The notes beneath the pieces were generated by a model that was not told the origin of the DNA, searched no databases, and saw nothing but the letters and a program-made list of their open reading frames with translations. 64,000 nucleotides of DNA from Aureimonas altamirensis (GTDB lineage Bacteria; Pseudomonadota; Alphaproteobacteria; Rhizobiales; Rhizobiaceae). The stretch lies in assembly GCF_023702225.1 (NCBI RefSeq), contig NZ_JAMQCO010000005.1:186001-250000 (forward strand). Direction: 5' to 3'. Made by a program: the position numbers and the translations under genes. Below are positions 1-16,706 of the stretch, piece by piece (positions within the stretch are counted from its first letter, which is position 1; every line of letters starts with the position of its first letter).

Positions 1-1296
1 GAAGCCCGGCTACTATTCGATGAAAAAGTCCGGAATGCTGGATCAATGTGGCCGTCGGTCAGCGTGGACGACCTGCTCGTTGAAAAGCTGCGCGCTGGAA
101 TTGCGGGACGACTGTCGGACGCAGAACTTCAGGAAATTGTCGGCGCACGTGTTGAGCACTTCCGCCGTATTGGCAACACTAACGCCGAGTTCGGAAGTGA
201 AGAATGGCGGATCGTCGCCCGCGCGATCTGCATATCGGACTATGAAGCTCTGTCCCGCGTGGCAGAACGCGACGAAGGTGACTTCACCGGGCAGATCGAG
301 CACCCCATGCTAAAGGACTTACAGCCGATCCCGGAAGAGAAGCCGCCCGTATCCCTGAAGAAGCTCTTCGCCGACTACATCGCCAGCCGCGTAGCTATTG
401 GCAAAGGCAAGGGCGCAGAGAAGCGTTGGACGCCTGTTTTCGAGAACCTTCGGAAGTTCGTAAAGCATGACGACGCGCGCCGCTTGACCAAACAGAACCT
501 TCAGGACTGGCGTGACGGTTTACTCAAAACGCACGCAGCGAAGACGGTAGGCGACGTGTATCTCGCGTCCGTTCGCACTGTGTTGAAATGGGCAGTGGAG
601 AACGACCGGCTCGAAGAGAACGTTGCCGAGAAGGTGCGGCAGCAAGTTCCAAAGAAGCAGTTGGACCGGGAACAGGGATACACTGACGCGGAAGCGCTTG
701 TGATCCTCAAGGCCGCGCGGGACTATCGCCCTGTCGCTTCCGACAATATCGCCACGAGCGAGCTTCCACAAACGACAGCCGCGAAACGTTGGGCACCGAT
801 CCTTTGCGCCTTTACCGGTGCGCGCATTGGGGAGCTTATGCAGCTTCGCAAGCAGGACTTCCGCAAGGAAGGGGAAACACACGTAATGCGAATCCGCCCA
901 TCGGCCGGCACGTTGAAAGCGGGTAGCTACCGTGATGTGCCATTGCACCAGCAGCTTATAGAGTCGGGCTTCCTTGAGTTCGTGCACACCTCACCAACCG
1001 ACGCGCTCTTCTATCGCGCATCGAAGGGGCGCGCAGCGACCAGCGGCGCGAAGGCGACTGCCGGACGAGTTAGCGTTTGGCTTCAAGGTCTCGGCGTTGT
1101 GCCTGAAGGTGTAAGCCCTAGTCACGGATGGCGGCACCGCTTCAAGACAGTCGGGCGCGAGGAAGGAATATCCGACCGGACGTTGGATGCAATTCAAGGT
1201 CACGCCTCGAAGACTGCCGGCGACAGCTACGGCGATGTGACTGTGAAGGCACGAAAAGCAGCTATTGATAAGCTGCCGAGCTATCCACTCAAATAG
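1..1296 (+). CDS. Tyrosine-type site-specific integrase (5' end outside window)
   Basis: Phage-type tyrosine recombinase that would integrate and excise the element. The frame is open back to base 1 with no stop; the first in-frame ATG is at 46, so the true start probably lies upstream of the window and the call is 5'-partial. An N-terminal SAM-like core-binding domain (roughly residues 105-200 counted from base 46) precedes the catalytic domain. Catalytic residues are visible: Arg in TGARIGEL, Lys in GTLKAGSYRD, His and Arg in HGWRHRFK, a second His in GHASKTAG, and the nucleophile Tyr in DSYGDV. The gene reads toward the portal gene. attL should therefore lie left of the window and cannot be seen. 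Family assignment is firm; the integration site is unknown. Confidence 0.93.
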   Translation, partial: EARLLFDEKVRNAGSMWPSVSVDDLLVEKLRAGIAGRLSDAELQEIVGARVEHFRRIGNTNAEFGSEEWRIVARAICISDYEALSRVAERDEGDFTGQIEHPMLKDLQPIPEEKPPVSLKKLFADYIASRVAIGKGKGAEKRWTPVFENLRKFVKHDDARRLTKQNLQDWRDGLLKTHAAKTVGDVYLASVRTVLKWAVENDRLEENVAEKVRQQVPKKQLDREQGYTDAEALVILKAARDYRPVASDNIATSELPQTTAAKRWAPILCAFTGARIGELMQLRKQDFRKEGETHVMRIRPSAGTLKAGSYRDVPLHQQLIESGFLEFVHTSPTDALFYRASKGRAATSGAKATAGRVSVWLQGLGVVPEGVSPSHGWRHRFKTVGREEGISDRTLDAIQGHASKTAGDSYGDVTVKARKAAIDKLPSYPLK

Positions 1297-1332
1297 TCTG
1301 TAAAAATTCTCGCATCATTCATACGATTTATG

Positions 1333-1384
1333 TTGCATCGCCGATTCGCAGTATGGGACAATATTGTCAAGATCAAATCTTGAC
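1333..1384 (+). promoter_or_regulatory. Candidate promoter with two overlapping palindromes before the morphogenesis operon
   Basis: Between the integrase stop and the portal start are TTGCAT (1333-1338) and, 18 bases later, GACAATATTGTC (1357-1368), a perfect 12-bp palindrome whose left part can act as a -10. It shares GTC with a second perfect inverted repeat, GTCAAGAT-CAA-ATCTTGAC (1366-1384). The arrangement suggests operator sites over the promoter of the operon starting at 1393. No repressor gene was recognised to match them. Confidence 0.5.
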
Positions 1385-1392
1385 GATGGCAA

Positions 1393-2634
1393 ATGGCTTC
1401 CACTCGCATCAAAGACGCAATCCGCGCCCTGTTCTCGTCTATTGAGACGAAGAGCGCAGACGTGCCGTTCAATGCGTGGGGATTGGAAGCATTCCTAACG
1501 CCTAACACCGTCTCTGGACACGTTATCACGCCAGAAGTTGCGATGCGTGTCCCGGCCGTGCTTGCGGCCGTTTCACTTTTGTCTTCAACGCTCGGCACAA
1601 TGCCGGCGAAGTTGCATCGCAAGCATGACGGACAGAAGGCCGTCGCCAACGATCACCCTGCGCACGCACTCATTCATCGGGAGGCCAACGAATGGACTAG
1701 CGCAGGCGAGCTACGTGCCTTGCTGACGCAGGACGCGCTCTTGCATGGCAATGGCTACGCCCTTGCCAATCGCGCCAATGCACGCGTTGTTGAGTTCATC
1801 CGGCTCGAGCCTACGTCCATACAGGTCCGCACCGATGATTACGGCGCACCGCTCTATGTCCATACGGCGACGGGCGGGCAGACAATCTACAACCACACCG
1901 AAGTTCTTCATCTTCGCTCGCGCACGTCCCTCGACGGCTTGTCCGGCGTAGCTCCTATTCGTTTGTGCCGTGAGGCCATCGGCCTTGCGTTGACGATGGA
2001 AGAACATGCGTCCCGCCTCTTCGCGGATGGTGCACGCCCCTCGGCTGTTTTGAAGCTTCCGGCCACAAATGGGCGTCCCGGCGAGGACGCAGCCAAGACG
2101 CAACGGAACATCATTGAGCGCGCCCGCGCTGGCCTCGCTGGCCTACAGAATGGCGGCAAGCTCGGCGTGCTATTCGATGGGGCCGACCTAGCGACCTTCG
2201 CTTTCTCGTCCGTGGACGCGCAGTTCCTCGAACTTCGCCGCTTCGCGATTGACGAGATCGCCCGTGCCTTCCGCATCCCGCCCACGATGCTCTTCGAGCT
2301 TGAGCGCGGAACGTGGAGCAACACCGAACAGATGGGGCAGCAGTTCCTTCAACTCACGCTCCTGCCGTGGATCGAAGCATGGCAGGACGCCTATGCCCGC
2401 GTGCTCCTGACACGCGAGGAACGCGCCTCCTACGGCGTTGAATTCATCGTTGAAGACCTCCTGCGCGCCGACACGGCCGCGCGATACGAGGCCTACAGCA
2501 AGGCCATCGCTTCCCGGTTCATGAATCCGAACGAGGCGCGCGCCCTCGAAAACCTGCCTTCATACGCAGGCGGCGACGAGTTCCTCAATCCGAACACGAC
2601 CGCCGCGACCGTCCCGGCAAACGAAGCCGCATGA
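1393..2634 (+). CDS. Phage portal protein, HK97 family
   Basis: Dodecameric head vertex protein through which DNA is packaged and to which the connector binds. The 413-residue length is typical of HK97-type portals. Family-like segments include the early VPAVLAAVSLLSSTLGTMP, the central LRRFAIDEIARAFRIPPTML and the following GTWSNTEQMGQQFLQLTLLPW. It is first in the morphogenesis operon, directly after the integrase, whereas HK97-type phages normally place terminase immediately upstream of portal. Its stop overlaps the next start (ATGA). Assignment is firm from the protein sequence. Confidence 0.93.
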   Translation: MASTRIKDAIRALFSSIETKSADVPFNAWGLEAFLTPNTVSGHVITPEVAMRVPAVLAAVSLLSSTLGTMPAKLHRKHDGQKAVANDHPAHALIHREANEWTSAGELRALLTQDALLHGNGYALANRANARVVEFIRLEPTSIQVRTDDYGAPLYVHTATGGQTIYNHTEVLHLRSRTSLDGLSGVAPIRLCREAIGLALTMEEHASRLFADGARPSAVLKLPATNGRPGEDAAKTQRNIIERARAGLAGLQNGGKLGVLFDGADLATFAFSSVDAQFLELRRFAIDEIARAFRIPPTMLFELERGTWSNTEQMGQQFLQLTLLPWIEAWQDAYARVLLTREERASYGVEFIVEDLLRADTAARYEAYSKAIASRFMNPNEARALENLPSYAGGDEFLNPNTTAATVPANEAA

Positions 2635-2951
2635 CCATATCGCACACTCAATTCTTCGGCGATCAGGAGCGCACGTTCATGCTCGCCGTTCCGCAGATCG
2701 TAGAGCTTGAGCGCCAGACCGGAACCGGCGTCGGCGCGCTCGCGCAGCGCATCATGCGCCGCGAGTTCGCGCTCAACGAGCTTCACCAGATCATTCGCCT
2801 CGGCCTTATCGGCGGCGGCACCGATCCCAAGGAGGCCACCGACCTGATGGCGGCTTACGTCTATCCCCGTCCAATCGAAGAGGCGCAGCTTATCGCAATC
2901 AACGTCATTTCCGCCGCCTACTTCGGCACACCGAATGAGGGCGCTGCCTGA
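2631..2951 (+). CDS. Gene-transfer-agent/tail-assembly-chaperone-like protein
   Basis: A 106-residue protein with the pattern of the small phage/GTA family often annotated as gene transfer agent family protein (TAC-like): a short beta-rich N-terminus, the phrase FMLAVPQIVELERQTGTGVGALAQR, then LNELHQIIRLGLIGGG. In GTA and siphovirus genomes these proteins sit between tail tube and tape measure and assist tail assembly. Here it is directly behind portal, with a 4-base ATGA overlap, away from the tail genes. The role is inferred from family resemblance. Confidence 0.7.
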   Translation: MTISHTQFFGDQERTFMLAVPQIVELERQTGTGVGALAQRIMRREFALNELHQIIRLGLIGGGTDPKEATDLMAAYVYPRPIEEAQLIAINVISAAYFGTPNEGAA

Positions 2952-3409
2952 TGCCTGTAGAGACCTTCAATATTTACGGCCAGCGAAAGGCCATCTCGCA
3001 GTTCGTGCTCGGCCCGAATGGGCGTCCAATTGATCGGGACGCGAATGGCGTTCCCGTTCCCACGCAATTCGTCTCCGAACCGATCCGCCTCGCCGGCCGC
3101 ATCGCGCTTCAAGTTGCGCCGGTCATGCGCTTCCTGCCGATCGACGCCCGGCTTTGGCTGGAGCGCTGTGTTGCTCCACCCCGTGAATCCGACACGGTCA
3201 TGGATTGGGCCGAAGCTACAAGCGAGGCGTTCGGCGGGTTCGATATCCAGATTCAGTCCTGGCAGGAAATCAATGCCACGAACGGCTGGATCACCAGTGC
3301 GCCCAGGCTCCGGCATTACGATGAGCCGGCCGCAGCGTGGTTCCGCGTTGTCGGCCTCTTCAAGCAGGATAACAGCGTCCACGTCTCATTGTCTGGGGGC
3401 GCGGTTTGA
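2951..3409 (+). CDS. Hypothetical phage structural-operon protein
   Basis: A 152-residue soluble protein that I do not recognise. It has no signal peptide, membrane segment or clear motif; the C-terminal half is rich in Trp and aromatics (DWAEAT, QSWQEINATNGW, AAAWFRVVGLF). It starts one base into the stop of the preceding gene (TGATG) and its own stop overlaps the TTG start of the protease gene, so it is translationally embedded in the head operon. Position suggests a role in head assembly or as a decoration or accessory protein, but that is only inference. Confidence 0.7.
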   Translation: MPVETFNIYGQRKAISQFVLGPNGRPIDRDANGVPVPTQFVSEPIRLAGRIALQVAPVMRFLPIDARLWLERCVAPPRESDTVMDWAEATSEAFGGFDIQIQSWQEINATNGWITSAPRLRHYDEPAAAWFRVVGLFKQDNSVHVSLSGGAV

Positions 3410-3912
3410 ACCTCATCGAGACAAAGGCCGAAATTACGTCCACCGAGACCGGCGAGATTTCTGGCCTCGCTTGGCCGTTCGGCACGCCCGACCGTGCCGG
3501 CGACATGATCCAGAAAGGCGCTTTTTCTAGTGCTTCTCTCCCGCTCCCGATGCTGTCCCGACATGATCCGGCCGCCCCTGTCGGCGTCTGGACCGGCGTC
3601 GAGGAAACTGACGAGGGCCTCATCCTCAAGGGCCGGCTTTTACTGGACGAGGTAGCAGGCGCGCGCGAGACGCTCGCGCTCGTGAAGGCCGGCGTTATGC
3701 GCGGCCTGTCCATTGGCTTCCGCACCTTGGCGACAGGCACCCCGACCCGTGGCCGTCGCCTGATCACGAAAGCCGAACTTGTCGAGTGCTCGTTCGTCAC
3801 CGTGCCGAGCCATCCCGGCGCAAAAGTCCTTTCGACCAAAGACGGAACGCGGGCTCTTGCGCTCGCAGACGCAATCAACCGGGCGACCCTAGCCCTCTCA
3901 CCCAAGAAGTAA
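3406..3912 (+). CDS. Prohead maturation protease, HK97 family
   Basis: Serine protease that cleaves the scaffold/delta domain of the capsid protein during head maturation. The 168 residues carry the family pattern: an early GEISGLAWPFGTPDRAGD segment, the catalytic His in LSRHDP, the catalytic Ser in GLSIGFR, and the acidic ELVECSFVTVP segment. The start is TTG at 3406, overlapping the previous stop by four bases; no ATG gives the conserved N-terminus. It lies immediately upstream of the capsid gene, as in HK97-type phages. Confidence 0.92.
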   Translation: MNLIETKAEITSTETGEISGLAWPFGTPDRAGDMIQKGAFSSASLPLPMLSRHDPAAPVGVWTGVEETDEGLILKGRLLLDEVAGARETLALVKAGVMRGLSIGFRTLATGTPTRGRRLITKAELVECSFVTVPSHPGAKVLSTKDGTRALALADAINRATLALSPKK

Positions 3913-3919: not shown

Positions 3920-5074
3920 ATGAACCTCGACCACTCGGCGTTTGCGAACGCCATCGAACTGAAGAGCGACGACGCCGACGCAAACGATATCGTGACGAAG
4001 GCGCTCGCCGACCTGACCACGACCATGGAAGCGCGCCTCGCCGCCATCGAGACGAAGGCCGCTGAACCCGCCTCCCGCCTCGACCGTTTGGAAGCTAAGC
4101 TGAACCGCCCGGCCATCCATACGAAGAGCGAAGAGGCACCCATCGAACAGAAGGCCTATGAGGGATACATCCGTCATGGCCTTCAGCAGATGACGGATAT
4201 CGAGACGAAGGCGCTCGTGCTCGCGAACGACTCGCAGGGCGGATACCTGGCCCCGGAAGCCCTCGCCAGCGAGATCCTTAAATCGCTTGTCGAATATTCG
4301 CCGATCCGCTCCTACGCCACGGTCACGACCATCGGCGCGGAATCAATCAAGCTCCCTCGCAAGACCGGCACCACGCAGGCCGTATGGGTAGAAGAGATCG
4401 AAGAGCGCACCGAGTCGCAGCCTTCCTTCGGCCAGATGAGTATCAAGCCGTGGGAACTTGCGACGTTCACCGATATGTCTGTCCAGCTTTTGGAGGACAA
4501 CGCCTATAACCTGATGGGCGAGCTGGCCGAAGACTTCGCCGAGAACTTCGGCAAGACGGAAGGGCTGGCATTCGTCAAAGGCACGGGCGTATCGCAGCCG
4601 ACCGGCCTGATGACGGCTCAAGGCATCGCCGAGCTTAACTCCGGCCATGCCTCCGGCTTCCCCTCGACCGACCCCTCTGACGTGCTCATCACCATGTATC
4701 ACGCCCTGCCGACCGCGCACGCACAGCGCGCGTGCTGGCTGATGAATCGCATGACGCTCGGCGAAATCCGCAAGTGGAAGGACGGCAACGGCCGTTACCT
4801 CATTGTGGACCCGATCAGCGAAGGCGCGCCGATGACCCTTCTCGGCCGGCCCATCGTTGAAGCCGTGGACATGGATAACATCGGCGCGGGCAATTTCCCG
4901 ATCCTCTTCGGCGACCTCAAGGGTTTCCGGATCGTGGATCGCGTCGGCTTTTCGACCATGCGCGACCCCTACACCCTTGCGACCCGTGGACAGGTCCGCG
5001 TCCACGCCCGCAAGCGTGTCGGCGCTGACGTGACCCACCCGGATCGCTTCATCAAGCTGCGCGTCGCGGCATAA
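3920..5074 (+). CDS. Major capsid protein, HK97 fold
   Basis: A 384-residue HK97-type coat protein. The N-terminal ~110 residues are charged and helical (KALADLTTTMEARLAAIETKA), as expected for a delta scaffolding domain removed by the protease. The mature part begins near ETKALVLANDSQGGYLAPEA and contains the usual P-domain and E-loop segments (SIKLPRKTGTTQAVWVEEIE) and the C-terminal FRIVDRVGFSTMRDPY. An AAGGAA ribosome site lies just before the ATG. With portal, protease and terminase this shows a full head-building set. Confidence 0.95.
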   Translation: MNLDHSAFANAIELKSDDADANDIVTKALADLTTTMEARLAAIETKAAEPASRLDRLEAKLNRPAIHTKSEEAPIEQKAYEGYIRHGLQQMTDIETKALVLANDSQGGYLAPEALASEILKSLVEYSPIRSYATVTTIGAESIKLPRKTGTTQAVWVEEIEERTESQPSFGQMSIKPWELATFTDMSVQLLEDNAYNLMGELAEDFAENFGKTEGLAFVKGTGVSQPTGLMTAQGIAELNSGHASGFPSTDPSDVLITMYHALPTAHAQRACWLMNRMTLGEIRKWKDGNGRYLIVDPISEGAPMTLLGRPIVEAVDMDNIGAGNFPILFGDLKGFRIVDRVGFSTMRDPYTLATRGQVRVHARKRVGADVTHPDRFIKLRVAA

Positions 5075-5091: not shown

Positions 5092-5565
5092 ATGGCAAAC
5101 TTTTCCCAGAGCACCGGCACGAAGGTTTATGTCGCTGGCGAGTCATCCGCATCCACCCTCGCCGAGTTCGAGACCCTGACGTGGACCGAAATCGGCGGCA
5201 TTACGTCCATCGGCTCGTTCGGCGATGAACGCGAAGAAATCACCGTCGATATGTTCGGGGCCGGTCGGCGCATCAAGCGCCCCGGCGTCCGCGATGCTGG
5301 CACGTTGGAATTGGAAGTCGCTCGTGACGCGCTGGATGTAGGCCAGCAGCTTTTGCGCGACGGCTTCAATGGCGGGCGCACGCACGCCGTTCGGGTTGTG
5401 TTGGACGACCGACCCGCAGGTGGCGGCACGCCGACGAGCGTCTACTGCCTCGGCGTCATCCTGTCTGCCCGCATCGGTATCGACGGGCCGAACGATATCG
5501 TGAAGCAGACCTTCAACGTCTCGCTCACCGACGCGCCGCTCGAAGTCCCGGCAGAGGCGGCATAA
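5092..5565 (+). CDS. Phage tail tube protein
   Basis: A 157-residue major tail protein. It starts MANFSQSTGTKVYVAG and contains LTWTEIGGITSIGSFGDER, a pattern common in siphovirus tail tube proteins. The rest alternates beta strands and ends FNVSLTDAPLEV. It would polymerise around the tape measure to form the tail tube. It follows the capsid gene directly, without the connector genes that usually separate them; those occur about 2 kb later. Confidence 0.83.
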   Translation: MANFSQSTGTKVYVAGESSASTLAEFETLTWTEIGGITSIGSFGDEREEITVDMFGAGRRIKRPGVRDAGTLELEVARDALDVGQQLLRDGFNGGRTHAVRVVLDDRPAGGGTPTSVYCLGVILSARIGIDGPNDIVKQTFNVSLTDAPLEVPAEAA

Positions 5566-5571: not shown

Positions 5572-6171
5572 ATGACGCGGCTCGCATGGGAAGCCGGGGC
5601 ACTCCAGCCCGGCGCTGAATCTTTACTCCCGACCATGCGGGCCGCGCTTCGGCTGGCGCGAGACTATGACGATTTCGCCCCTCTGTTCCGAGCCATTGCA
5701 GAGGGTTCCGTCACCGTCATCAGTCGCGTCATGAGGGAGTGCGCAATCAGTCCGGGCGCACTCCCTCTCTTTCCCGATCCCGATAAAAGCCTCGCCGTGA
5801 CCCTAAGTGAGCACCAGCCGCTCGCTTTCGAGCTTCTCGCCGGCCTACTCGGCGTTGACACGAACGAACAGCCGGAAAGCAGCCGGCCGGCATCCAAGCA
5901 CGCCAAACCAACGCGCCTCATCGAGCACTACGAATACCTTTTCGGCTTTGCGACCGGCATCCTGAAATGGACACCGGCTCAGACCTACGCGGCCACTCCC
6001 GGCGAGATAATCGCCGCGTTCGAGTTCCGGCAGAAGGCATACGCATCAAAGGACGACAAAGACGCCGCCAAGGACGCGCACGCGAAGCTCACCCTCAATC
6101 AGCAGGCAATAAAGGCATTCGCCGGCCTTGGTGCTCGCGTCGTCAAAAGGACGAAGCCCGATGCCGAGTAA
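5572..6171 (+). CDS. Probable tail assembly chaperone
   Basis: A 199-residue protein directly after the tail tube gene. The C-terminal third, with LKWTPAQTYAATPGEIIAAFEFRQKAY, resembles small phage tail assembly chaperones that deliver the tape measure to the growing tail. The N-terminal part is helical and less conserved. Its 3' end overlaps the HNH gene by 11 bases. Position after the tail tube and the C-terminal pattern support the call; no -1 frameshift product is evident. Confidence 0.55.
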   Translation: MTRLAWEAGALQPGAESLLPTMRAALRLARDYDDFAPLFRAIAEGSVTVISRVMRECAISPGALPLFPDPDKSLAVTLSEHQPLAFELLAGLLGVDTNEQPESSRPASKHAKPTRLIEHYEYLFGFATGILKWTPAQTYAATPGEIIAAFEFRQKAYASKDDKDAAKDAHAKLTLNQQAIKAFAGLGARVVKRTKPDAE

Positions 6172-6514
6172 GCCGCTCCGCATCTGTGCCTGTGGCAAGC
6201 GCGTCCCGGCTACACAGCGCTGCGAATGCCAGATCAACCGCGAGCGCGAGCGCAAGGCGCGCCATGATGCCAACCGTCCGACCGCCTCGCAGCGCGGCTA
6301 CGGCACGAAGTGGCGCGCTGCCCGCGTCACGTTCCTCGAACAGCACCCGACCTGTGCCAGATGCGGTGCGCCTGCGACCATCGTGGACCACATCATTCCC
6401 CATCGTGGCGACCTGACGAAGCGCGGCCTCTTCTGGAACCGGCGCAACTGGCAACCCCTGTGCAAGCCCTGTCACGACCGCGCGAAGCAATCCGAAGAGA
6501 AGAGCGCCAGCTAA
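6161..6514 (+). CDS. HNH endonuclease
   Basis: A 117-residue HNH nuclease. It has paired zinc-binding cysteines in the core (CARCGAP and CKPCH) around the HNH motif: DHIIPH supplies the first His, NWQPLC the Asn and CHDRAK the last His. An extra Cys cluster (CACGKR, CEC) is at the N-terminus. Start ATG 6161 has AAGGACG upstream; the frame is open further 5' but without a better start. In cos-packaging phages such HNH proteins act with terminase and map beside it; here the gene sits in the tail region, about 2.7 kb from terminase. Confidence 0.88.
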   Translation: MPSKPLRICACGKRVPATQRCECQINRERERKARHDANRPTASQRGYGTKWRAARVTFLEQHPTCARCGAPATIVDHIIPHRGDLTKRGLFWNRRNWQPLCKPCHDRAKQSEEKSAS

Positions 6515-6870
6515 TGCCCTTGCAGACCTTCAACCCGCCGCTCGCCCCTGTCGTCGGCTCATCCGTTCGTAACGAGATGAAGCTTCGGCGCACCGAGTTC
6601 GGCGACGGCTACACGCAGATCACCCGCGACGGCATGAACCATCATCGCGTCACCCCGTCGCTTCGCTGGGAATTGCTCGACCCCGAACAGCTTGTCGCCA
6701 TTGACGACTTCCTCAAGCACCACGGCGGCGACACCCCGTTCTACTACACGCTGCCCGGCCAGACGACGCCCACGAAGTTCACCTGCGAAGAGTGGACATG
6801 GACTGGCATGAGCGCCGGCTACGCCTCCCTCGACGCCACGTTCAAACAGTCCTTCAGCTTGCAGGTATGA
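6514..6870 (+). CDS. Minor tail protein, lambda gpM-like
   Basis: A 118-residue protein of the phage minor tail family (lambda gpM). It has the characteristic RRTEFGDGYTQITRDGMN near residue 30, then FLKHHGGDTPFYYTLPG and CEEWTWTGMSAGYASLDATF. In lambda gpM acts with the tail-tip proteins after the tape measure. Here its usual partners gpL, gpK, gpI and gpJ were not found. The start overlaps the preceding stop (TAATG). Confidence 0.85.
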   Translation: MPLQTFNPPLAPVVGSSVRNEMKLRRTEFGDGYTQITRDGMNHHRVTPSLRWELLDPEQLVAIDDFLKHHGGDTPFYYTLPGQTTPTKFTCEEWTWTGMSAGYASLDATFKQSFSLQV

Positions 6871-7393: not shown

Positions 7394-7451
7394 GGGACCG
7401 GCGGGGGTTCCGCCGCGCAAGATTTCTCGCAAATGGGATTTTTTTGAATGA
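7386..7451 (+). CDS. MicroORF (21 codons) bridging two genes
   Basis: The 54-base gap between the repeat protein and the connector is filled by an ATG frame of 21 codons ending TGA at 7449-7451. The peptide begins MTKGPAGVPPR and ends KISRKWDFFE. Its ATG lies inside the end of the preceding gene and its stop overlaps the next start (ATGA at 7448), the coupling pattern used by the surrounding genes. It is basic and contains a CGGCGG-GGGTT-CCGCCG inverted repeat (7399-7415). Function is unknown; it could be a leader peptide or chance. Confidence 0.4.
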   Translation: MTKGPAGVPPRKISRKWDFFE

Positions 7452-7726
7452 CCGTCTCGACGGATGAACTGAAACAGCACCTCGCCATCGAAGGCGACGA
7501 AGACGATGCCATGCTGACGGCCATCATTGGCGAAGCCATGTCATGGATCGAGAACTACACGGGCCTCGAATCGTTACCGGTCGAAGAAACGCCGCCCGCA
7601 CTCAACCGAGCCGTGAAGACTCTCGCCGCACACTTCTATCAGCAGCGCGGCGATAGCTTCGAACCCCTGTCGATCCCGGCAGACGTGTTCGGCCTGTGTG
7701 CACCCTATAAAGAGTTCGCGTTCTGA
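7448..7726 (+). CDS. Head-tail connector protein, gp6-like
   Basis: A 92-residue protein of the HK97 gp6 / DNA-packaging adaptor family. It begins with an all-helical segment (TDELKQHLAIEGDEDDAMLTAIIGEAMSWIENYTG) and continues with helices that include AVKTLAAHFYQQRG. It forms the ring below the portal. In HK97-type genomes it follows the capsid gene; here seven other small genes intervene. Start and stop overlap the neighbouring genes by four and one bases. Confidence 0.85.
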   Translation: MTVSTDELKQHLAIEGDEDDAMLTAIIGEAMSWIENYTGLESLPVEETPPALNRAVKTLAAHFYQQRGDSFEPLSIPADVFGLCAPYKEFAF

Positions 7727-8145
7727 TGGCGCGCTCCCGGCAGGTCGACAAGCTTTTTCGACGCCTCAACCGCATTCCTGAGCGCGTCCGCGAGGCAGCT
7801 CAGCCGGCCGTCAATAAAGGCGCGCAGGACATGGCCGGCACCATGCGCCATCTCGCGCCCGTGGACGAAGGCGACCTGCGCGACAGCGTGACCGTCACCC
7901 CGGCCGGCCAGACGACCCCGCCTTACTCGCAGCCGGGCGGCTCAATCCTCGTTCCCGATGGCGCGGCTGTCGTGACCGCGGGCAACAGCGACGTGCGCTA
8001 TCCGCACCTTCTGGAATACGGCACCAGCGACACGCAAGCGCAGCCGTTCTTCTGGCCGGCCGTCCGGCTCAATCGCAAGCGCGCCGAGAACCGCATCAAA
8101 CGCGCCATGGCGAAGAGCGTCCGTGAGACGTGGGGCGGAAAATGA
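7726..8145 (+). CDS. HK97 gp10-like virion protein
   Basis: A 139-residue protein of the HK97-gp10/tail-completion group. It has a helical N-terminus, the phrase MRHLAPVDEGDLRDSV, then RYPHLLEYGTSDTQAQPFFWPAV, which is the family hallmark. It takes part in closing the head-to-tail joint. It starts on the last base of the connector gene and overlaps the next start (ATGA). Confidence 0.88.
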   Translation: MARSRQVDKLFRRLNRIPERVREAAQPAVNKGAQDMAGTMRHLAPVDEGDLRDSVTVTPAGQTTPPYSQPGGSILVPDGAAVVTAGNSDVRYPHLLEYGTSDTQAQPFFWPAVRLNRKRAENRIKRAMAKSVRETWGGK

Positions 8146-8860: not shown

Positions 8861-9264
8861 AGGGGCGCAGGCCAAACGAAATCGCGGCAGACACGGCAAC
8901 TTTGATGAACACGCCAAAGCCGCCCGCATGGCTGTCGAAAGACTCGAAAGCGGAATGGCGTCGTGTCGCCCCTATCCTTGTCGAGCGGGCTGTGCTGACC
9001 GAAGCCGACCTCGGCATTCTGGAATCCTATGTTGTGGCGATTGCCCGCGTCCGCGAGGCAGAGCGCACCATAGCCAGCGACGGCGCGACGATCACGAATG
9101 CCAAGGGCGAGTTCAAGCGCCACCCGGCCGTCACCTCTCAGGATGCCGCAATCAAGACCGCGCGCCTGTGCGCCAACGAGCTTGGCCTGACGCCCGTCAG
9201 CCGTTCCCGCCCTTCCATTCGAGCGACCAGTGACGAAGACGACCTATCCCCACTGGATATCTGA
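8857..9264 (+). CDS. Terminase small subunit, P27 family
   Basis: DNA-recognition subunit of the packaging motor, 135 residues. Characteristic pieces are the basic MKGRRPNE start, PPAWLSKDSKAEWRRVAPIL and the helical VLTEADLGILESYVVAIARVREAE, followed by HPAVTSQDAAIKTARLCANELGL. P27-type small terminases usually go with cos packaging and an HNH protein. It overlaps head closure by four bases and the large subunit by 35 bases, showing tight coupling. Confidence 0.9.
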   Translation: MKGRRPNEIAADTATLMNTPKPPAWLSKDSKAEWRRVAPILVERAVLTEADLGILESYVVAIARVREAERTIASDGATITNAKGEFKRHPAVTSQDAAIKTARLCANELGLTPVSRSRPSIRATSDEDDLSPLDI

Positions 9265-10858
9265 CGGCTCGGCAATCCCCGACCCACTCGGCCATGGCGA
9301 GCGCGCCGTGCGGTTTCTGCGTGCCCTCAAGCACCCGAAGAGCACGCTTCCCCGGCGTGCCTTCACGCTCGACCCGTGGCAGGAGCGTATCGTCCGGCGC
9401 ATCTACGGCCCACGCCATCCGAACGGCGACCGCATCGTCAAGACGGTTGTGCTGTTGCTGCCGCGCGGGAACCGCAAAACCAGCCTCTCGGCCGCGCTCG
9501 CTCTTCTCCATACCATCGGCCCGGAACACCGTCCGAACGGCGAGGCAATCTTTGCGGCCAGCGACCGCACGCAGGCAGGCATCGGCTTTCGTGAGGCGGC
9601 CGGCATCATCGAACAGGACAGGCGTCTCATCGCGGCGACCCGCACCTATGACGCGCACAACTCGGCGAAAAAGATCGTCTACGAGAAAGACGGCGCGTTC
9701 CTCGAAGTCGTGTCGAGCGACGGCAAAAAGCAGCACGGGCGCACCCCTGATTTCGTGCTTGCCGACGAAATCCACGTCTGGCGCGGCGAAGAGCTATGGG
9801 AAGCGCTCACGACCGGTCTAGAGAAGTCCGACAACGGCTTGCTCGTCATCGCCACGACCGCAGGGCGTGGGCAGGAGAACATGGCGTGGCGCACGATTGA
9901 GGATGCCCGCAAGGTTGCACGCGGCGAGGTAGACGACCCGTCCATTCTGCCCGTGCTCTTCGAGGCCGACGCGAAAGCCGATTGGCTGGACGAAACAGTC
10001 TGGCACGCGGTCAATCCCGGCTTGCAGCATGGCTATCCCTCGCTCGACGGCTTCCGGCGCCATGCCAATCGTGCAGAACGCAGTGCTGTGGAGCGTGAAT
10101 CCTTCCGTCAGTTGAAGCTCAATATCTGGCTCGACCAGTCCACCAGCCCGTTTGTGGACATGGCTGTCTACGACGAAGGCGCTGGCGAGATCGATCTTGA
10201 ATCTCTTCACGGATTGCCCGCGTGGATCGGCGTAGACATGAGCGCCACGACCGACCTGACGGCGGTCGTGGCCTGCGTCCGCGACGATGAGCGCTACATC
10301 CTTCTGCCGAAGTTCTTCCTACCCGGTGACGACCTGCGCGCCCGTGGCGACCGTGACGGCGTTCCCTATGTCGCATGGGCCGAACAGGGGCACGTCACGC
10401 CGACGCCCGGCAACGCCATTGATTACCGCGCCGTCGAGGCTGGCATCCGCGAGTTCTGCGACTTGTTCGACGTGCGCGAGATCGCGTTCGATATCGCCTA
10501 CAGCCAACCCGTCGCCGGTCCGCTCGGCGACGAGGGCTATCCCGTTACGACCCTTCGCCAAGGATGGGTTACGCAGTCGCCCGCCCTCAACGAGCTTGAG
10601 CGCGTGATTGTCGAGCGCAAGCTTGTCCACGGCGGACACCCGGCGCTGCGTTGGTGCTTCGGCAATGTAGCCATCCACACCGACAGCGCCGGCAACCGCA
10701 CCATGCACAAGGGCAAATCACACGGCGACAAAAACCGCCGTATCGACGGCGCGGTCGCGTCGTGGATGGCAGTCTCCCGTGCTGCCGCCGACGAACCCGC
10801 CCCGCTTTCCATCTATGCGTCCGACGATTTCGACCCGGCGCTTTGCACGATCTTTTAG
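9230..10858 (+). CDS. Terminase large subunit
   Basis: ATPase-nuclease that pumps DNA into the head, 542 residues. The motor domain has a Walker A-like PRGNRKTSLSAA after an adenine-binding DPWQERIVRRI, a Walker B FVLADEIHVW and the coupling motif VIATTAG. The nuclease domain has its first Asp in GVDMSATTDLTAV and a late acidic segment RRIDGAVASWM. Start is GTG at 9230, inside the small-subunit gene. Placing terminase as the last head gene, after the closure genes, is atypical for HK97-like phages. Confidence 0.94.
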   Translation: MTKTTYPHWISDGSAIPDPLGHGERAVRFLRALKHPKSTLPRRAFTLDPWQERIVRRIYGPRHPNGDRIVKTVVLLLPRGNRKTSLSAALALLHTIGPEHRPNGEAIFAASDRTQAGIGFREAAGIIEQDRRLIAATRTYDAHNSAKKIVYEKDGAFLEVVSSDGKKQHGRTPDFVLADEIHVWRGEELWEALTTGLEKSDNGLLVIATTAGRGQENMAWRTIEDARKVARGEVDDPSILPVLFEADAKADWLDETVWHAVNPGLQHGYPSLDGFRRHANRAERSAVERESFRQLKLNIWLDQSTSPFVDMAVYDEGAGEIDLESLHGLPAWIGVDMSATTDLTAVVACVRDDERYILLPKFFLPGDDLRARGDRDGVPYVAWAEQGHVTPTPGNAIDYRAVEAGIREFCDLFDVREIAFDIAYSQPVAGPLGDEGYPVTTLRQGWVTQSPALNELERVIVERKLVHGGHPALRWCFGNVAIHTDSAGNRTMHKGKSHGDKNRRIDGAVASWMAVSRAAADEPAPLSIYASDDFDPALCTIF

Positions 10859-10865: not shown

Positions 10866-13490
10866 ATGTCCCGCGATACAGAACAGCTTGTCGTCACGCT
10901 CGAAGCGCGCGTTAACGATTTCCAGCGCCAGATGCAGCGTGCCGAACGACGCGCCAGCCAGAGCTTCGGCACGATGGAGCGCCGCGCGCAACAGGCCGGC
11001 AAGAGGATGGAGGACTCGCTTCGCTCATCCACGGCGAACATAAATCGCCTTCTCAGCGGCCTTGGCGTCGGCATCTCCCTCAACGAGCTTCGCAACCTTG
11101 CCGAGACTTGGACGGACCTGACCTCGCGCGTCAACATCGCGGCAGGCTCGCAGGAACAGGGCGCGGCTGTCATGGCTCGCGTCTCCCAAATTGCCCGGCG
11201 CACCTATTCCGACCTTAGTCAGACGGCAAACGCCTACGTGGCGAACAGCCAAGCTCTGAAAGACCTCGGCTATTCCACGCAGACGCAGCTTGATTATACC
11301 GAAGCCCTGAACAATGCGCTTGTCGTCTCGAACGCGAAGGGGCAGCAGGCCGAAAGCGTCATGGACGCCCTGTCGAAGGCTATGGCGAATGGCGAGCTTC
11401 GCGGCGATAACCTGAATACCGTGATCGGGACAGGCGGGCGCGTAGCGCAGGCCCTCGCCGATGGCCTTGGCGTCACCGTCACAGAACTGCGTGCCCTCGG
11501 GCAGCAGGGCAAGCTTACCAGCGACGTTGTGGTGAAAGCCCTTACCGGCGAGCTTGGCAAGCTTCGCGAGGAAGCCGAATCCATGCCGGCGACTATCTCG
11601 GACGCCCTTGTGCTCTTGCGTAACAGCCTGACGCAGTATGTCGGCAAGCTCAACGAAGCGAACGGCGTCACGTCCATCTTCTCGGACGGCATCATTCTCG
11701 TCGCCGACAATATCGAGACGATCGCGGCCGGCGCAGCTACGGCCGGCCTTGTGATCAGCGGGAAATACGTGCCGGGTTTGGTGCGCGCCACGGCAGCACA
11801 GGCAGCCATGATCGCGACGAACCCGTTCCTGTTGCTTGTATCGGCCATCGGCGCTGCCACGTTCGCCCTCTCGGCCTTCGGCGACCAGATCACGCCGATT
11901 GAAGGCGATCTTGCGAACATGCAGGACTATGCCGGGGCGGCTTGGACCGCGATCAAGGAAGGTGCTTACGCGGCGGGCACTGGCATCAACGATACCCTCG
12001 TTACTGCCATCAACTTCATCTCGGAAGCCATCGGCGGGGCTGAAGTCTCGTTCGGCGACCTCGCTGATTTCGTGAAGTCCGTCACCAACCAGATCATCGG
12101 CGAGCTTGGCCTCGTCTATGATACCGTCCGCATTGCGTTCACGAAGCTGCCCGGCGCGGTCGCAGAGGCAGTCGTCAACGCAATGAACAGCATGATCGCC
12201 GGGATTGAAAGCGGCCTGAATGGCGTTGTCGAGGCGGTAAACAGCACGATCACCAGCATCAACAGCGTCGGCGAGCGCGTCGGCGTCTCCCTTGGCACTA
12301 TCAGTTCCGTCACCCTCGGCCGCATCACGAACGCCTATGAAGGTGCTGGCGCTGCCGCAGGCGAAGCGTTTGCCGATGCCATGCGAAACGCCGGTAATGA
12401 TCATGTCGGCGCAGCCCTTGGAGCATGGCGCAACGCTGCCAACCAGCGCGCACAGGATCGCCTCGCAAACCAGCCCGAAGCGCCGCAGATCGATAGCGAG
12501 GATAACCCTGTCGCCCGTGCCCGACCCGGTAGCGGCAAGGGATCAGGCGGTGGCGGCTCGGGCCGTGGTGGACGCGGACGCGGCGGTAGGGGTGGTGAGA
12601 ATGAGTTCGACCGACAGGTAGGCCAGATCAACGAGCGCATTGCCGCGCTCAAGATGGAAACCGAAGCCCGGCGCGGCCTCACTGGCACCTTGGACCAGCA
12701 GGACGCAGCATTGGAGCGCGCACACCTTCGTCATGAGCTTCTCGTTGCAGCCCAAAAGGCCGGCCTCGCCATCACGCCGGAACTGGAAAACCGTATCAAC
12801 GCGCTCGCCGACGCCTATAGCTCGGCTTCGCTTGAGGCCCAGGCACTTGCCAAATCGCAAGAGGATGCAGCCCAGCGCGCCGATGAGTTCAAGTCCATGT
12901 CGTCGGACCTGTTGAAGGGGTTCGTCTCGGACCTGCGCAGCGGCAAGGGGCCGCTCGACGCGCTCCTGTCCGGTCTCGACAAAATCGCCGACAAGCTCCT
13001 CGACATGGCGTTGTCCAATCTGTTCGAAAACGCGCTCGGCGGCCTCGGGGGTGGATTGTTCGGTAAGCTCTTCGGCTTTGCTAATGGCGGCGAGGTGAAA
13101 GGCTACGCCACTGGTGGGCATGTGCGCGGTCCGGGCACCGGGCGCAGTGACAGCATCCCGGCCATGTTGAGCAACGGCGAGTATGTCATCAACGCACGCT
13201 CGACCGCGAAGCACCGCGCCTTGTTGGACGCGATCAACAGCGGCACCCTGCCGGCGTTCGCAGACGGCGGGCCTGTCGGACGTGCGCGGAAGGTGGGCAA
13301 CGCGGGGGCGGCGAGCGCCGGGCAAAGTATCACGATTGCGCCCGCGATTACCGTAAACGCCAATGGCGGCACGCCGGAACAGAATGCGGACCTCGCGCGC
13401 CAGACCGCGAAAGCTGCCGAAAACTCCATCCGCGCGATTGTTCAGCAGGAGTTTCGCAGCGCGACCAGACCGGGCGGAATCCTTCGCTGA
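10866..13490 (+). CDS. Tail tape measure protein
   Basis: An 874-residue length-determining tail protein. The start ATG 10866 has AGGAG just upstream; an earlier in-frame start overlaps terminase and is less likely. Order: coiled-coil N-terminus (RQMQRAERRASQSF), tape-measure core with MANGELRGDNLNTVIGTGGRV near residues 180-200, hydrophobic segment (IATNPFLLLVSAIGAATFALSAFG) near 320-345, a Gly/Arg-rich linker around 555-580, a helical part, and a C-terminal Gly-rich domain with GYATGGHVRGPGTGRSDSI. It is the last structural gene found; no tail-tip or fibre gene follows. Confidence 0.93.
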   Translation: MSRDTEQLVVTLEARVNDFQRQMQRAERRASQSFGTMERRAQQAGKRMEDSLRSSTANINRLLSGLGVGISLNELRNLAETWTDLTSRVNIAAGSQEQGAAVMARVSQIARRTYSDLSQTANAYVANSQALKDLGYSTQTQLDYTEALNNALVVSNAKGQQAESVMDALSKAMANGELRGDNLNTVIGTGGRVAQALADGLGVTVTELRALGQQGKLTSDVVVKALTGELGKLREEAESMPATISDALVLLRNSLTQYVGKLNEANGVTSIFSDGIILVADNIETIAAGAATAGLVISGKYVPGLVRATAAQAAMIATNPFLLLVSAIGAATFALSAFGDQITPIEGDLANMQDYAGAAWTAIKEGAYAAGTGINDTLVTAINFISEAIGGAEVSFGDLADFVKSVTNQIIGELGLVYDTVRIAFTKLPGAVAEAVVNAMNSMIAGIESGLNGVVEAVNSTITSINSVGERVGVSLGTISSVTLGRITNAYEGAGAAAGEAFADAMRNAGNDHVGAALGAWRNAANQRAQDRLANQPEAPQIDSEDNPVARARPGSGKGSGGGGSGRGGRGRGGRGGENEFDRQVGQINERIAALKMETEARRGLTGTLDQQDAALERAHLRHELLVAAQKAGLAITPELENRINALADAYSSASLEAQALAKSQEDAAQRADEFKSMSSDLLKGFVSDLRSGKGPLDALLSGLDKIADKLLDMALSNLFENALGGLGGGLFGKLFGFANGGEVKGYATGGHVRGPGTGRSDSIPAMLSNGEYVINARSTAKHRALLDAINSGTLPAFADGGPVGRARKVGNAGAASAGQSITIAPAITVNANGGTPEQNADLARQTAKAAENSIRAIVQQEFRSATRPGGILR

Positions 13491-13655: not shown

Positions 13656-14633
13656 GTGCTGTGTGTAAATGATCAACCATTATCGTCTAGCGAAATCGAT
13701 GAATTGTTCGCTGAGTTCTATCGTGACGATTTTGGCAGTCTGGTAAATCCCGAAGCCTCAGAATCACGCCCGACGCCGAGCCTTGAAGGCCCGCAAGCCG
13801 GGGCTTTGGGCCATCTTGCCCCAGCGCCCGCATGTGACGAGACTTTAGTATGGGAAACTCCTGTCTCCACTAACAACCCTCCATCTACCAACACGCTGAC
13901 AGAGACGCACACCCACGCAGACACCGTTCAAGAAACACTTGCGAACACGCTCACGGAAAAATCGTCGGCGCGCGCCAGCATCCATTCGTCCCCGTCTGTC
14001 CCTGACCTGAAAGACGTCCGCGAACGCGCCGACAACTGGCTCGCGTCACAGTCGAAGACATTCCAATCGAAGCAGAAGAATCGCCAAACGCTCATACAAG
14101 CCCAAGAGGCGCTTTCTACACGCTGGCGCGACCTCAGCGGCCCAACTCGCGCAAACGCTCTCACACGGGCCTGTATGGCAGCCGGCGAGACGTATCCTTT
14201 CACGCTGAACTTGAACCCTGCGACTGAGAAGGCCGCGCTCGCATCCGGCGCACCGCACACCTACCTCGCCAAGCGTATCACGCGGCACCTCAAGCCTATC
14301 CTCGGCGAACCTCTGTTCTGGATCGTCACGGAACAGGCCCAGAACACCGATCGCTCAGCACGTCTTCACGTCCATGGCTGCATCCGCGCCGACGAAGAGA
14401 CCCTCCCGGCCGTTCGTGAGGCGCTACGCAAAGCAGGCGGCGAATGGGAACAGCACCGGCAGTTTCAGGCGCATATCCTCAAGGACGCGCCTGATTTTGG
14501 ATGGCACGAGTATGTCAGCAAAGAAACCAAAACGTTCGCCGCGCCGCTCATAGCCAAACAACGTGCTCAGGCTATCCACGACGGGAAACGCGCCAGACGG
14601 AAAGCATACCGCGATCCCGCACCTAGATCATGA
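13656..14633 (+). CDS. HUH-endonuclease-like protein, possible replication initiator
   Basis: A 325-residue protein. The first ~130 residues are Ser/Thr/Pro-rich and look disordered. The C-terminal half resembles rolling-circle Rep proteins: a motif-1-like strand YPFTLNLNP (180-188), then FWIVTEQ, an H-x-H pair in LHVHG (His238, His240) and a Tyr-x-x-Lys in WHEYVSKE (Tyr286, Lys289). These are the metal-binding and nicking-Tyr elements of HUH endonucleases. Start GTG 13656 has AGGA ten bases upstream. An AT-rich tract follows the gene. The Rep assignment is inference from motifs; a relaxase or transposase relative is also possible. Confidence 0.5.
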   Translation: MLCVNDQPLSSSEIDELFAEFYRDDFGSLVNPEASESRPTPSLEGPQAGALGHLAPAPACDETLVWETPVSTNNPPSTNTLTETHTHADTVQETLANTLTEKSSARASIHSSPSVPDLKDVRERADNWLASQSKTFQSKQKNRQTLIQAQEALSTRWRDLSGPTRANALTRACMAAGETYPFTLNLNPATEKAALASGAPHTYLAKRITRHLKPILGEPLFWIVTEQAQNTDRSARLHVHGCIRADEETLPAVREALRKAGGEWEQHRQFQAHILKDAPDFGWHEYVSKETKTFAAPLIAKQRAQAIHDGKRARRKAYRDPAPRS

Positions 14634-15672: not shown

Positions 15673-15734
15673 CCGCAGCGAACCGAAGCAAGAGATTCCA
15701 ACCGACGCGGCTCCAACCGCGCCGGAAGGATAAG

Positions 15735-15810
15735 CCACGCCTCGGCGTGGAATGCAGGCCCGCGCAATGGCTTAGGAACCGCGCGGGAACGTCAACAGGC
15801 CGATACGGCC
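15735..15810 (+). ncRNA. Three successive hairpins in a leader region
   Basis: The 155-base gap before 15828 contains three perfect stems in a row: CCACGC/GCGTGG (15735-15750), CCCGCGC/GCGCGGG (15759-15765 with 15781-15787) and GGCCG/CGGCC (15798-15810). A purine-rich GAAAGGG ribosome site and the ATG at 15828 follow. This looks like a structured 5' leader or a small RNA; no known riboswitch family was recognised. Confidence 0.35.
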
Positions 15811-15827
15811 GATGAAAGGGCAATAAC

Positions 15828-16253
15828 ATGCGCAAGCGCACCACATCAAATGATATCACCGGCCGCGACGGCTACATTGTTACACAGGCGTTGATCTACG
15901 CAATCGCGCATATTCAAAATCTTCCGGAAGAAGATCAGGAATGGGCAAATATGCGCGACATGTGCAGGCTCGTGCGGGCTTCGACGTCTCCGTTCATTCC
16001 GCAGTTCATGCTTAGCGTCAAAAATCACACCGGCACGCTTCCGAACCTCTGGCCGGAGGAAGAGGGCGACTTGTCTGCCTCGGAGCTTACGGCGCGTGAC
16101 GAGTTTCAAGCAGAGTTGGCCGCGTTTGAAGAGCGGATGAATTTGCTCAGCAAGGGAGCCTACGCGCTCATGACGACCAACGATGGAACTGCGCAGGTGA
16201 TGGGGGATGACGGGCGCGGAAGACTCGACGCCTACCTCCTGCCGGCCGGCTGA
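15828..16253 (+). CDS. Hypothetical protein
   Basis: A 141-residue soluble protein, not recognised. It has a helical N-terminal half (YIVTQALIYAIAHIQNLPEEDQEWANMRDMCRLVR) and an acidic middle (WPEEEGDLSASELTARDEFQAELAAFEERM). The ATG has GAAAGGG upstream and the gene is preceded by three hairpins. It is followed within eight bases by a perfect 12-bp hairpin. The genes at 15160 and 15828 may form an accessory module, but no partner function can be named. Confidence 0.6.
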   Translation: MRKRTTSNDITGRDGYIVTQALIYAIAHIQNLPEEDQEWANMRDMCRLVRASTSPFIPQFMLSVKNHTGTLPNLWPEEEGDLSASELTARDEFQAELAAFEERMNLLSKGAYALMTTNDGTAQVMGDDGRGRLDAYLLPAG

Positions 16254-16260
16254 TGCCAAT

Positions 16261-16287
16261 CTGCCCTGACGAGTGTCGTCAGGGCAG
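16261..16287. terminator. Perfect 12-bp hairpin between two accessory genes
   Basis: CTGCCCTGACGA (16261-16272), loop GTG, TCGTCAGGGCAG (16276-16287): a perfect 12-bp stem just after the stop at 16253. There is no T-run on either side, so it is not a classic intrinsic terminator; it may stabilise or separate transcripts. Confidence 0.45.
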
Positions 16288-16325
16288 CCCTGCCAAAAGA
16301 TCCATCTACAGAAGGATTACCGCAC

Positions 16326-16706
16326 ATGAATTTGCGGGACAAACAGTCGTGCGCCATTTGCAGCGCCAGCCCAAGCCAAGTAATCAGCCTTTCTTCCCAT
16401 CCATCGCGCGGCGGTCATGCTCCCAGTGCAGTTCGCGGCCTCTTCGTCGATCTCGTCGAAGCCTACGCAATTGGACACGCCATGACGATTTGGGAGCATC
16501 GCAAACTCCGCGAACTGACCGGTAAGTTATGGAATTGCACTGATGCACTTCCCTGGCATTTGTATGGAGATATCGAAGCACTACAGTGCACAGTAGAAAA
16601 GATGCCTACGACCTACGCTCAAGCTGCTCGCTTCATACGCCAGCGGATGCTAAGAGACCGGCCGCGCATTCGTATACAAGCTGTGAGCCGGCCGCTTGCG
16701 CCTTGA
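16326..16706 (+). CDS. Hypothetical protein
   Basis: A 126-residue protein, not recognised. ATG 16326 has AAGGA about nine bases upstream. It has two early cysteines (CAIC, a possible half zinc knuckle), then a helical FVDLVEAYAIGHAMTIWEHRKLRELTG and a basic C-terminal helix (YAQAARFIRQRMLRDRPRIRIQ). It is the last + strand gene before the opposite-strand ATPase. Another frame opening at 16253 overlaps it but has no coding character. Confidence 0.55.
   Translation: MNLRDKQSCAICSASPSQVISLSSHPSRGGHAPSAVRGLFVDLVEAYAIGHAMTIWEHRKLRELTGKLWNCTDALPWHLYGDIEALQCTVEKMPTTYAQAARFIRQRMLRDRPRIRIQAVSRPLAP

Follow-up and report, generated by a model that had tools for sequence, protein, structure and literature searches.

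A tail-tube-encoding integrative element of Aureimonas altamirensis is a likely phage satellite

What is a compact integrated phage element that encodes a head and most of a tail, together with no recognisable gene for a tail tip or for lysis? The question is raised by an element at the left end of a 64,000-nucleotide stretch of Aureimonas altamirensis DNA (the window; contig NZ_JAMQCO010000005.1 of assembly GCF_023702225.1, positions 186,001 to 250,000, here G000:C37:186001-250000), part of a 4.33-Mb genome of 41 contigs. We consider it likely that the element is an integrative phage satellite, which forms its own capsid and tail tube and would borrow tip and lysis functions from a helper phage. 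The predicted genes establish a set for integration, head, packaging and a tail from tube to tape measure, the lack of a recognisable hub, receptor-binding or lysis gene, and membership of a large family of narrow size. Satellites of this type are real and widespread, and probably functional.

Extent and gene content of the element

An earlier note, made from the letters of this DNA alone, had placed the element at window positions 1 to 16706. Its extent had to be corrected: the element measures 19,089 bp and is bounded by a 24-bp sequence in the 3' end of tRNA-Thr (attL) and by an exact copy of it (attR). The integrase is the element's left end; its frame starts 278 bp left of the window, adjoins attL and points inward. 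In two other genomes of the genus (G353 and G220) the tRNA-Thr site is empty, and DNA matching window positions 20322-20337 onward comes directly after tRNA-Thr or less than 0.7 kb further on. Since tRNA-Thr adjoins the downstream host DNA in both, the element is an insertion. Genes were assigned to families with PHROGs and Pfam, giving the following features:

L002:19608-19631 (window -392), attL: 24-bp repeat at the tRNA-Thr 3' end, exact
L002:19556-19630, just outside the window's left edge: tRNA-Thr gene
1..1296, plus strand: tyrosine integrase, 524 amino acids (aa) (PHROG integrase, E 8e-29; PF00589)
1393..2634, plus: portal (phrog_12, E 2.6e-95; PF04860)
2631..2951, plus: tail assembly chaperone, GTA-gp10-like (PF11836, E 6.8e-21; phrog_8985)
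2951..3409, plus: protein without family (unmatched in PHROGs at E up to 1 and in Pfam at E up to 0.01)
3406..3912, plus: head maturation protease (phrog_80, E 2e-37)
3920..5074, plus: HK97-type major capsid protein (PF05065, E 9e-78)
5092..5565, plus: major tail (tube) protein (phrog_158, E 1e-18)
5572..6171, plus: phrog_7493 protein with weak similarity to tail chaperones
6161..6514, plus: HNH endonuclease (phrog_144, E 5e-27)
6514..6870, plus: lambda gpM-like minor (distal) tail protein (PF05939, E 3.8e-21; 45% to Rhizobium phage gpM)
6872..7393, plus: HNH-family-like gene, probably DNA-binding (phrog_3377, E 2e-13)
7448..7726, plus: head-tail adaptor Ad1 (phrog_40)
7726..8145, plus: tail completion or neck protein (phrog_5)
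8142..8549, plus: tail terminator (phrog_176)
8537..8860, plus: head closure Hc1 (phrog_25)
8857..9264, plus: terminase small subunit, terS (phrog_83, E 5e-38)
9230..10858, plus: terminase large subunit, TerL (PF20441, PF03354; phrog_9)
10866..13490, plus: tape measure protein, 874 aa (phrog_17300, E 6e-151; C-terminus like that of a phage with gpM-L-K-I-J)
13656..14633, plus: putative HUH replication initiator (HxHG and Tyr motif; weak fold matches)
14787-15050, 15160-15672, 15828-16253 and 16326-16706, plus: small genes with no assigned function
16777..18474, minus: KAP-type P-loop NTPase, 565 aa (PF07693 and PF24883 above cut-off)
18697-18720, plus, attR: exact 24-bp copy of the tRNA-Thr 3' end

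The genes named in the earlier note, from integrase to tape measure, are thus present in the order it gave, on one strand and with intact frames (PHROGs, Pfam and gene calls), and its tail-chaperone-like gene was borne out as a member of the GTA-gp10 kind. That note had also seen small unassigned genes and an HUH-like gene after the tape measure; these are there, and in addition a minus-strand KAP NTPase gene lies inside the right end. For the HUH-like gene, support came from the motif and from weak fold matches to HUH Rep domains. The first His, the Gly and the Tyr of the motif are found in 16/16 aligned relatives and the second His in at least 90%; the structural model has a mean pLDDT (predicted local distance difference test) of 75, and its best PDB matches, none better than E 2e-3, include the Rep domains of adeno-associated virus and circovirus. 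Motif and model are suggestive of an HUH replication initiator. Among the small genes, the first three gave no match at E<0.01 in PHROGs or Pfam, and the fourth none in Pfam, the only library scanned with it. The NTPase region has 45-47% GC in 1-kb windows and yielded a single, weak PADLOC candidate (E 4e-4); the gene is probable cargo and a possible defence gene.

The PHROGs and Pfam scans of the element detected no family of hub, receptor-binding, holin, endolysin or repressor proteins. The earlier claim that tip, lysis and repressor genes are lacking therefore stands as far as recognisable families go, with the qualification that a distal tail component, the gpM-like protein, is present. 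Family scans leave room for a lysis protein of a novel type. Apart from one frame antisense to the tape measure, the raw open reading frames (ORFs) of at least 450 aa in the element belong to the tape measure, the NTPase, TerL and the integrase; since all of them are accounted for, no ORF of hub size is left over. Tip, lysis or repressor genes might also have stood immediately left of the window, a possibility that the earlier note had raised against itself; the 20 kb there are host-like, judged by gene calls without a family-library scan.

Between attR and the resumed host synteny lies approximately 1.6 kb of extra DNA (18721-20321). It is not at the same site in G353 or G220 and holds a gene that we take to be HchA/DJ-1-like.

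A family of relatives with conserved gene order and narrow size

TerL matches at E up to 1e-60 occurred in 74 of the 394 genomes of the host's family, its own included. Among the 94 places of such matches, 69 (again with the own) had at least 42% identity and the next had 36%; none of the seven other genomes of the same genus carried the element's TerL. Beyond this set, at least 508 TerL relatives were found in IMG/VR and 226 in GTDB contigs, and the downstream work used 80 of the IMG/VR loci and the best 80 of the 226 GTDB loci. Hosts include Jiella, Aureimonas, Devosia, Bradyrhizobium, Rhodopseudomonas, Xanthobacter, Ancylobacter, Martelella, Paracoccus, Azospirillum and others, and two records are titled merely 'Proteobacteria bacterium'; the named hosts we take to be Alphaproteobacteria. 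In 50,697 phage records there was no TerL match at 60% identity (those listed had 35-36%) and no tape-measure match covering 80% of the query.

Profiles from 14 bounded elements were mapped on 181 loci, of which 97 with portal, capsid and enough flank were retained. Loci without portal plus capsid nearby, with less than 6.5 kb before or less than 4.2 kb after TerL, with a TerL below 430 aa or with an identical TerL were excluded from the tree. In relatives, genes were called by codon score, and the caller overlooked at least one long ORF on the minus strand (G354_C14). Tape measure, terminator and neck were found together in 71/97 loci. In all 71 the order is portal-capsid-TerL-tape measure, and 65 show the full order portal-capsid-Ad1-terminator-Hc1-terS-TerL-tape measure; a neck gene follows TerL in 16 loci. 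The position of the terminase at the 3' end, from which the earlier note had concluded that the element is rearranged, is real, but it is a conserved family trait and not a rearrangement of this copy. The tube protein was detected in 44/71 loci, or 48/71 with an iterated profile. Many relatives have a gene of 128-130 aa between portal and protease, where the chaperone sits in our element, and PHROGs identified it as a tail chaperone in the one member tested.

Attachment (att) repeats derived from tRNA genes were found in 39 of the 101 loci scanned. Sizes are reported for att-bounded loci with a class label (24 and 6, the latter reduced to five by exclusion of L185). The 24 bounded elements with a tape measure measure 14.1-19.4 kb (median 17.5), with 23/24 at 16.5-19.4 kb, the same range as in the 18 bounded elements with a tube protein, and sizes are 15.5-16.7 kb for the five that have neither tube nor tape-measure-like genes. 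In the 71 loci with a tape measure the core has a median length of 10.7 kb, versus 6.6 kb in 23 without, two of which (L118 and L185) in fact carry a divergent tape-measure-like gene missed by the profiles. Since total length is alike despite this core difference of approximately 4 kb, the data suggest that the head encoded by the element limits how much DNA is packaged. Loci that have tail genes are interleaved with loci that lack them, with 10 changes on the TerL tree, 11 on the portal tree and 8 on the terS tree; as class labels are imperfect, the 10 TerL-tree changes are an upper-side estimate. The tail-bearing label demanded a tape measure and at least one further tail gene, with or without a tube protein. 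We had considered that the elements divide cleanly into those that have tail genes and those that do not; L118 and L185, and also this definition, weaken that idea.

Tail-tip and lysis genes in relatives

We searched the relatives for tip genes by gene size, by homology and by family. The gap from tape measure to integrase could be inspected in 38 of the 71 tape-measure-bearing loci, which have the integrase on the right. It spans 0.6-5.3 kb, and the longest called forward gene in it has 608 aa (a defence candidate), all others having at most 398 aa. In the other 33 loci, four genes exceed 500 aa: one encodes a DpdF-like helicase (L116), two belong to the HUH-gene family (G088, L205) and one lies beyond attR (G383). 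As queries we then used eight hub-domain proteins, one from contig C23 of the present genome and seven from prophage-like loci in genomes that carry an element, together with a hub like that of gene transfer agents (GTAs). None of these matched any of the 71 loci. Two loci that have no tube genes, G321 and L132, matched the C23 hub in part; in L132 the match lies right of the integrase and is therefore probably outside the element. The hub-like stretch of G321, 158 aa long, is located on G321_C20 at 10050-10511 of the joined locus L050/L070.

The tip proteins L, K, I and J of the Rhizobium phage RHph_N1_10 matched nothing in the 14 bounded elements, of which five matched its M and four the C-terminus of its tape measure; across all 97 element regions, L, K and J again found no match. 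As positive controls, five hub queries matched five control loci each, and K, I and J matched the control prophage L078, while the GTA-like hub, the C23 hub, one other hub and gpL each matched their own control only. As an outgroup, 10 of the 25 lower-identity TerL places were fetched, and a hub was found in three (G294, G367 and G117). In G294 and G367 the genes follow the canonical order terL-portal-capsid-...-tape measure-Dit, and the hub lies 2.1-2.4 kb past the Dit start. Five of the seven without a hub match are compact head-gene clusters and two (G334 and G392) are of ambiguous type.

Among the families listed for the post-tape-measure genes of relatives are tail chaperones, a distal tail protein, integrase and regulators of the AlpA/excisionase-like and Arc-like kinds. 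The earlier note had asked whether relatives always carry tip and lysis genes: the families listed for them (the best 25 of 69, 25 of 76 and 25 of 31) included no lysis gene and no tip gene, and the homology queries revealed a single tip gene, gpI, in nine loci. Rescanning of 19 larger family-less proteins of relatives gave no lysis match. The nine gpI loci all have neck and second chaperone after TerL and do not group as a single clade in the TerL tree. Three of them were opened; in these the lambda gpI-like gene stands directly after the portal or after small genes (L086:1236-1934, L175:3430-4101, L104:3477-4142), and L, K, J and the tube protein were not found there. Relative G350 carries an extra 195-aa tail protein.

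Purifying selection in a close pair

Selection was analysed in 19 genes, TerL not among them, of the closest pair of relatives, G354_C2 and G222_C2; our copy is not part of the pair. Nonsynonymous and synonymous divergence (dN/dS) were 0.0043/0.159 for portal, 0.0104/0.162 for capsid, 0.0027/0.191 for tube, 0.0078/0.145 for tape measure, 0.0114/0.185 for gpM and 0.0129/0.156 for integrase. The corresponding ratios were 0.03 (portal), 0.01 (tube), 0.05 (tape measure), 0.06 (gpM) and 0.08 (integrase); the named head and tail genes ranged from 0.01 to 0.15, and the highest value, 0.23, belonged to a 126-aa gene after the capsid gene. This strong purifying selection speaks against decay.

A possible docking interface and candidate helpers

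In RHph_N1_10 the gene order is tape measure-M-L-K-I-J. Its M and its tape-measure C-terminus match the element (the latter with 34% identity over 155 residues, and 61.7% over 60 in relative G046), whereas its L, K, I and J do not. In TP901-1, the last ~60 residues of the tape measure are required and its C-terminus has been proposed to bind Dit and Tal, according to the available part of PMC5099701. The tail genes of the element thus end where RHph_N1_10 goes on to the tip. The simplest interpretation is that tube assembly begins on the tip of a helper.

We therefore picture the following cycle for a satellite of this kind. With a helper siphophage growing in the cell, the element would excise and replicate from its HUH initiator, and its DNA would be packaged by its own terminase into its own heads. 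Its tail tube would be built on the tip complex of the helper (hub and receptor-binding proteins of the gpL/K/I/J type), where the element's gpM and tape-measure C-terminus would dock. Particles would be released by the helper's lysis genes, and the helper's tip would set the host range. We lean, though only slightly, towards a broader joint reading, in which an alphaproteobacterial class of satellites consists of nearly complete siphophages that parasitise a helper for tip complex and lysis only. Here tape-measure C-terminus and gpM would form a plug fitting a helper's L-K-I-J tip, some members would contribute gpI to the assembly of the helper's J, in others the tube protein may be borrowed as well, and the tail module would have been gained and lost repeatedly, genome size being held by the head. 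If this is true, the minimal point of dependence narrows to host recognition, as the tube is self-made and only the tip is stolen; tip-tube compatibility through tape-measure C-terminus and gpM becomes a testable rule for matching helpers and satellites; and many small 'incomplete prophages' of Alphaproteobacteria are working mobile elements, some with defence genes.

Two contigs of the genome hold other phage genes: C23 has at its start a gene for a 1229-aa hub-domain tail protein (G000:C23:392-4081, L075), and C17 (L251) is a 9.9-kb contig with HK97-type head and tail genes. They are possibly pieces of one prophage, a candidate helper. The phage remnant on C39 was rejected as a helper because it is broken. 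We also discarded the rule that a co-resident prophage shares the tape-measure C-terminus of the satellite, since the best match was the genome's own prophage in 2/5 genomes only (G116 with L080 and G334 with L079, not G165, G088 or the present genome); the L081 tape measure in this comparison was a guess.

Relation to known systems

The design of the element is nearest to that of capsid-forming phage-inducible chromosomal islands (cf-PICIs), which the available text of PMC10690885 and PMC11389934 describes as relying on a helper for tails. It has in common with them integrase and att sites as well as its own capsid, protease, portal, connectors, HNH, terS and terL. In contrast to their lack of tail genes, the element has genes of its own for tube, terminator, chaperone, tape measure and gpM; no alpA homologue or Pri-Rep was found in this copy, which has the putative HUH-type gene instead. 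The putative Escherichia coli satellites of PMC10448857, as far as the accessible part of that paper goes, are likewise att-bounded, mostly in tRNA genes, and carry capsid genes, a tape measure and a baseplate component while most tail genes are absent; a tape measure in a satellite is thus not new by itself. They are without terminase, protease and adaptors, all of which our element has in addition to the tube. The Pseudomonas satellite AH14b (helper AH14a) resembles the family in its 16.8 kb, its integrase and a gpI homologue, as in the nine relatives, 71-74% identical to that of its helper, but is without structural or terminase genes in what we could access of PMC4936722. Streptomyces MulchRoom and MiniFlayer are satellites with their own encapsidation genes; they differ in their hosts and direct terminal repeats, the tail of MulchRoom being taken as helper-encoded and MiniFlayer having short tail fibres (PMC10690885, available part). 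Rhizobium phages of the RHEph10 and RHph_N1_10 kind have a gpM 38-45% identical in ten listed records and a matching tape-measure C-terminus, but measure 115-122 kb, and RHph_N1_10, the one opened, has L, K, I and J. Judged by titles and openings of abstracts, with subscription journals and bioRxiv thinly covered, we met no paper on this element family, nor, in the literature looked at, an integrated family this broad with head, terminase and tube but without tip and lysis.

Weighing the explanations

Might the element be a very small autonomous temperate phage, its tip, lysis and repressor genes hidden among the small unassigned ones? Intact frames, an integrase, packaging genes, a tail tube and a probable replication initiator of its own would fit, and several genes are without known family. 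However, no hub-size ORF remains, the tip and holin or endolysin genes of an autonomous siphophage were found neither in the element nor in the listed families of relatives (gpI in nine excepted), and hub, L, K and J queries failed throughout the tape-measure-bearing loci. We regard this explanation as unlikely. A defective prophage frozen in place, the other reading offered by the earlier note, or remnants spread by descent, would account for the missing tip and lysis genes, and remnants do exist (a 64-aa tape-measure piece in G353, the broken relative on C39). Against this, the same design recurs in many genera at different tRNA genes and within a narrow size range, the site is empty in the same genus and dN/dS is low in the pair analysed; this copy has intact frames, and gene order and size are conserved across the family, unlike the broken genes, relaxed selection and lack of a conserved design of a defective prophage. 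Decay thus appears very improbable, while the satellite-like reading of the same note gained support from similar-sized, tRNA-integrated elements that repeat the design in many genera, with helper dependence as the predicted part.

GTAs are fixed, vertically inherited loci without integrase. A GTA or other host-owned particle is suggested by the GTA-gp10 family of the chaperone and by a PF13550 hub-domain gene in 19/20 element-bearing genomes, many with frames of ~1260-1370 aa, which we take to be the size of GTA hubs; such genes could also serve as tip donors. Yet integrase, tRNA att sites and att repeats, empty sites and patchy presence (absent from the other seven genomes of the genus) are traits of mobile elements, and the only PF13550 match of the present genome (E 2.8e-7, over the cut-off) is to a protein of 1229 aa, so that we give this explanation very little weight. 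Equally little credit goes to a satellite whose tail genes do not serve its own infection but act, for example, as a decoy titrating or jamming helper tails. That tail-bearing and tail-less loci interleave on the TerL tree, and that a full tube seems not essential given the relatives without a recognised one, would agree with a decoy; the strong purifying selection on tail genes in the pair, and the joint presence of terminator, neck and length ruler in 71/71 loci, would not.

Several observations weigh against a satellite that builds its own tube and borrows tip and lysis. In 23/71 tape-measure-bearing loci even the iterated profile revealed no tube protein; there it may be too divergent, be encoded elsewhere or come from another phage. 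Since this concerns a third of these relatives, we rate the reading slightly lower; own tube building is predicted from the genes of this element, not for the whole family. The gpM-type tape-measure C-terminus was detected in 29/71 loci and a gpM/Dit-like gene in 47/71. One tip-assembly gene, gpI, is kept in 9/97 relatives, and G321, which has no tube genes, matches the N-terminus of the C23 hub over its 158-aa stretch directly after TerL. Hub queries may overlook some hubs, given that 7/10 outgroup loci, including the ambiguous G334 and G392, yielded none, and the absence of gpL is without independent positive control, its query having matched only its own phage. AlpA, Pri-Rep or repressor genes were not recognised in this copy (PHROGs, Pfam), and the candidate helper genes on C23 and C17 are broken by contig ends. 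The 80 IMG/VR loci, some of them trimmed contigs, showed no direct terminal repeat of 15-399 bases, and thus no circular or packaged form was caught. Finally, helper dependence, excision, particles and transfer are inferred from gene content.

Remnants, cargo and a second element type

In G353 (C1 near 2136800, L263:9795-9986) the 64 C-terminal residues of a close tape measure (78% identity) are left as a remnant, which lies near tRNA-Val and adjoins DNA similar to window positions 18745-19210. The broken element on C39 (G000:C39:111000-118000, L249) lies near tRNA-Pro and has integrase-like, capsid-like and protease genes and two tape-measure pieces, one stretch of which is 42-45% identical to the tape measure studied here.

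Satellites usually carry defence-like cargo. In relatives we found a reverse transcriptase of the Drt3b type (L122), the DpdF-like helicase of L116, a candidate PDC-S49 gene (L236) and, in one, a BglII-type restriction enzyme; AlpA/excisionase-like genes do occur among them. The long minus-strand ORF of G354_C14 (L044:15663-18716), an element without tube genes, encodes 1017 aa that are weakly SIR2/Argonaute-like (E ~1e-4).

A second compact element type (L266-L285, in G167, G177, G393, G071 and G153) has a distant TerL, 32-34% identical, the order TerL-capsid-adaptor-protease-portal and, in 4/5 genomes, an integrase ~7-7.5 kb past the TerL start. These elements look like head-only satellites.

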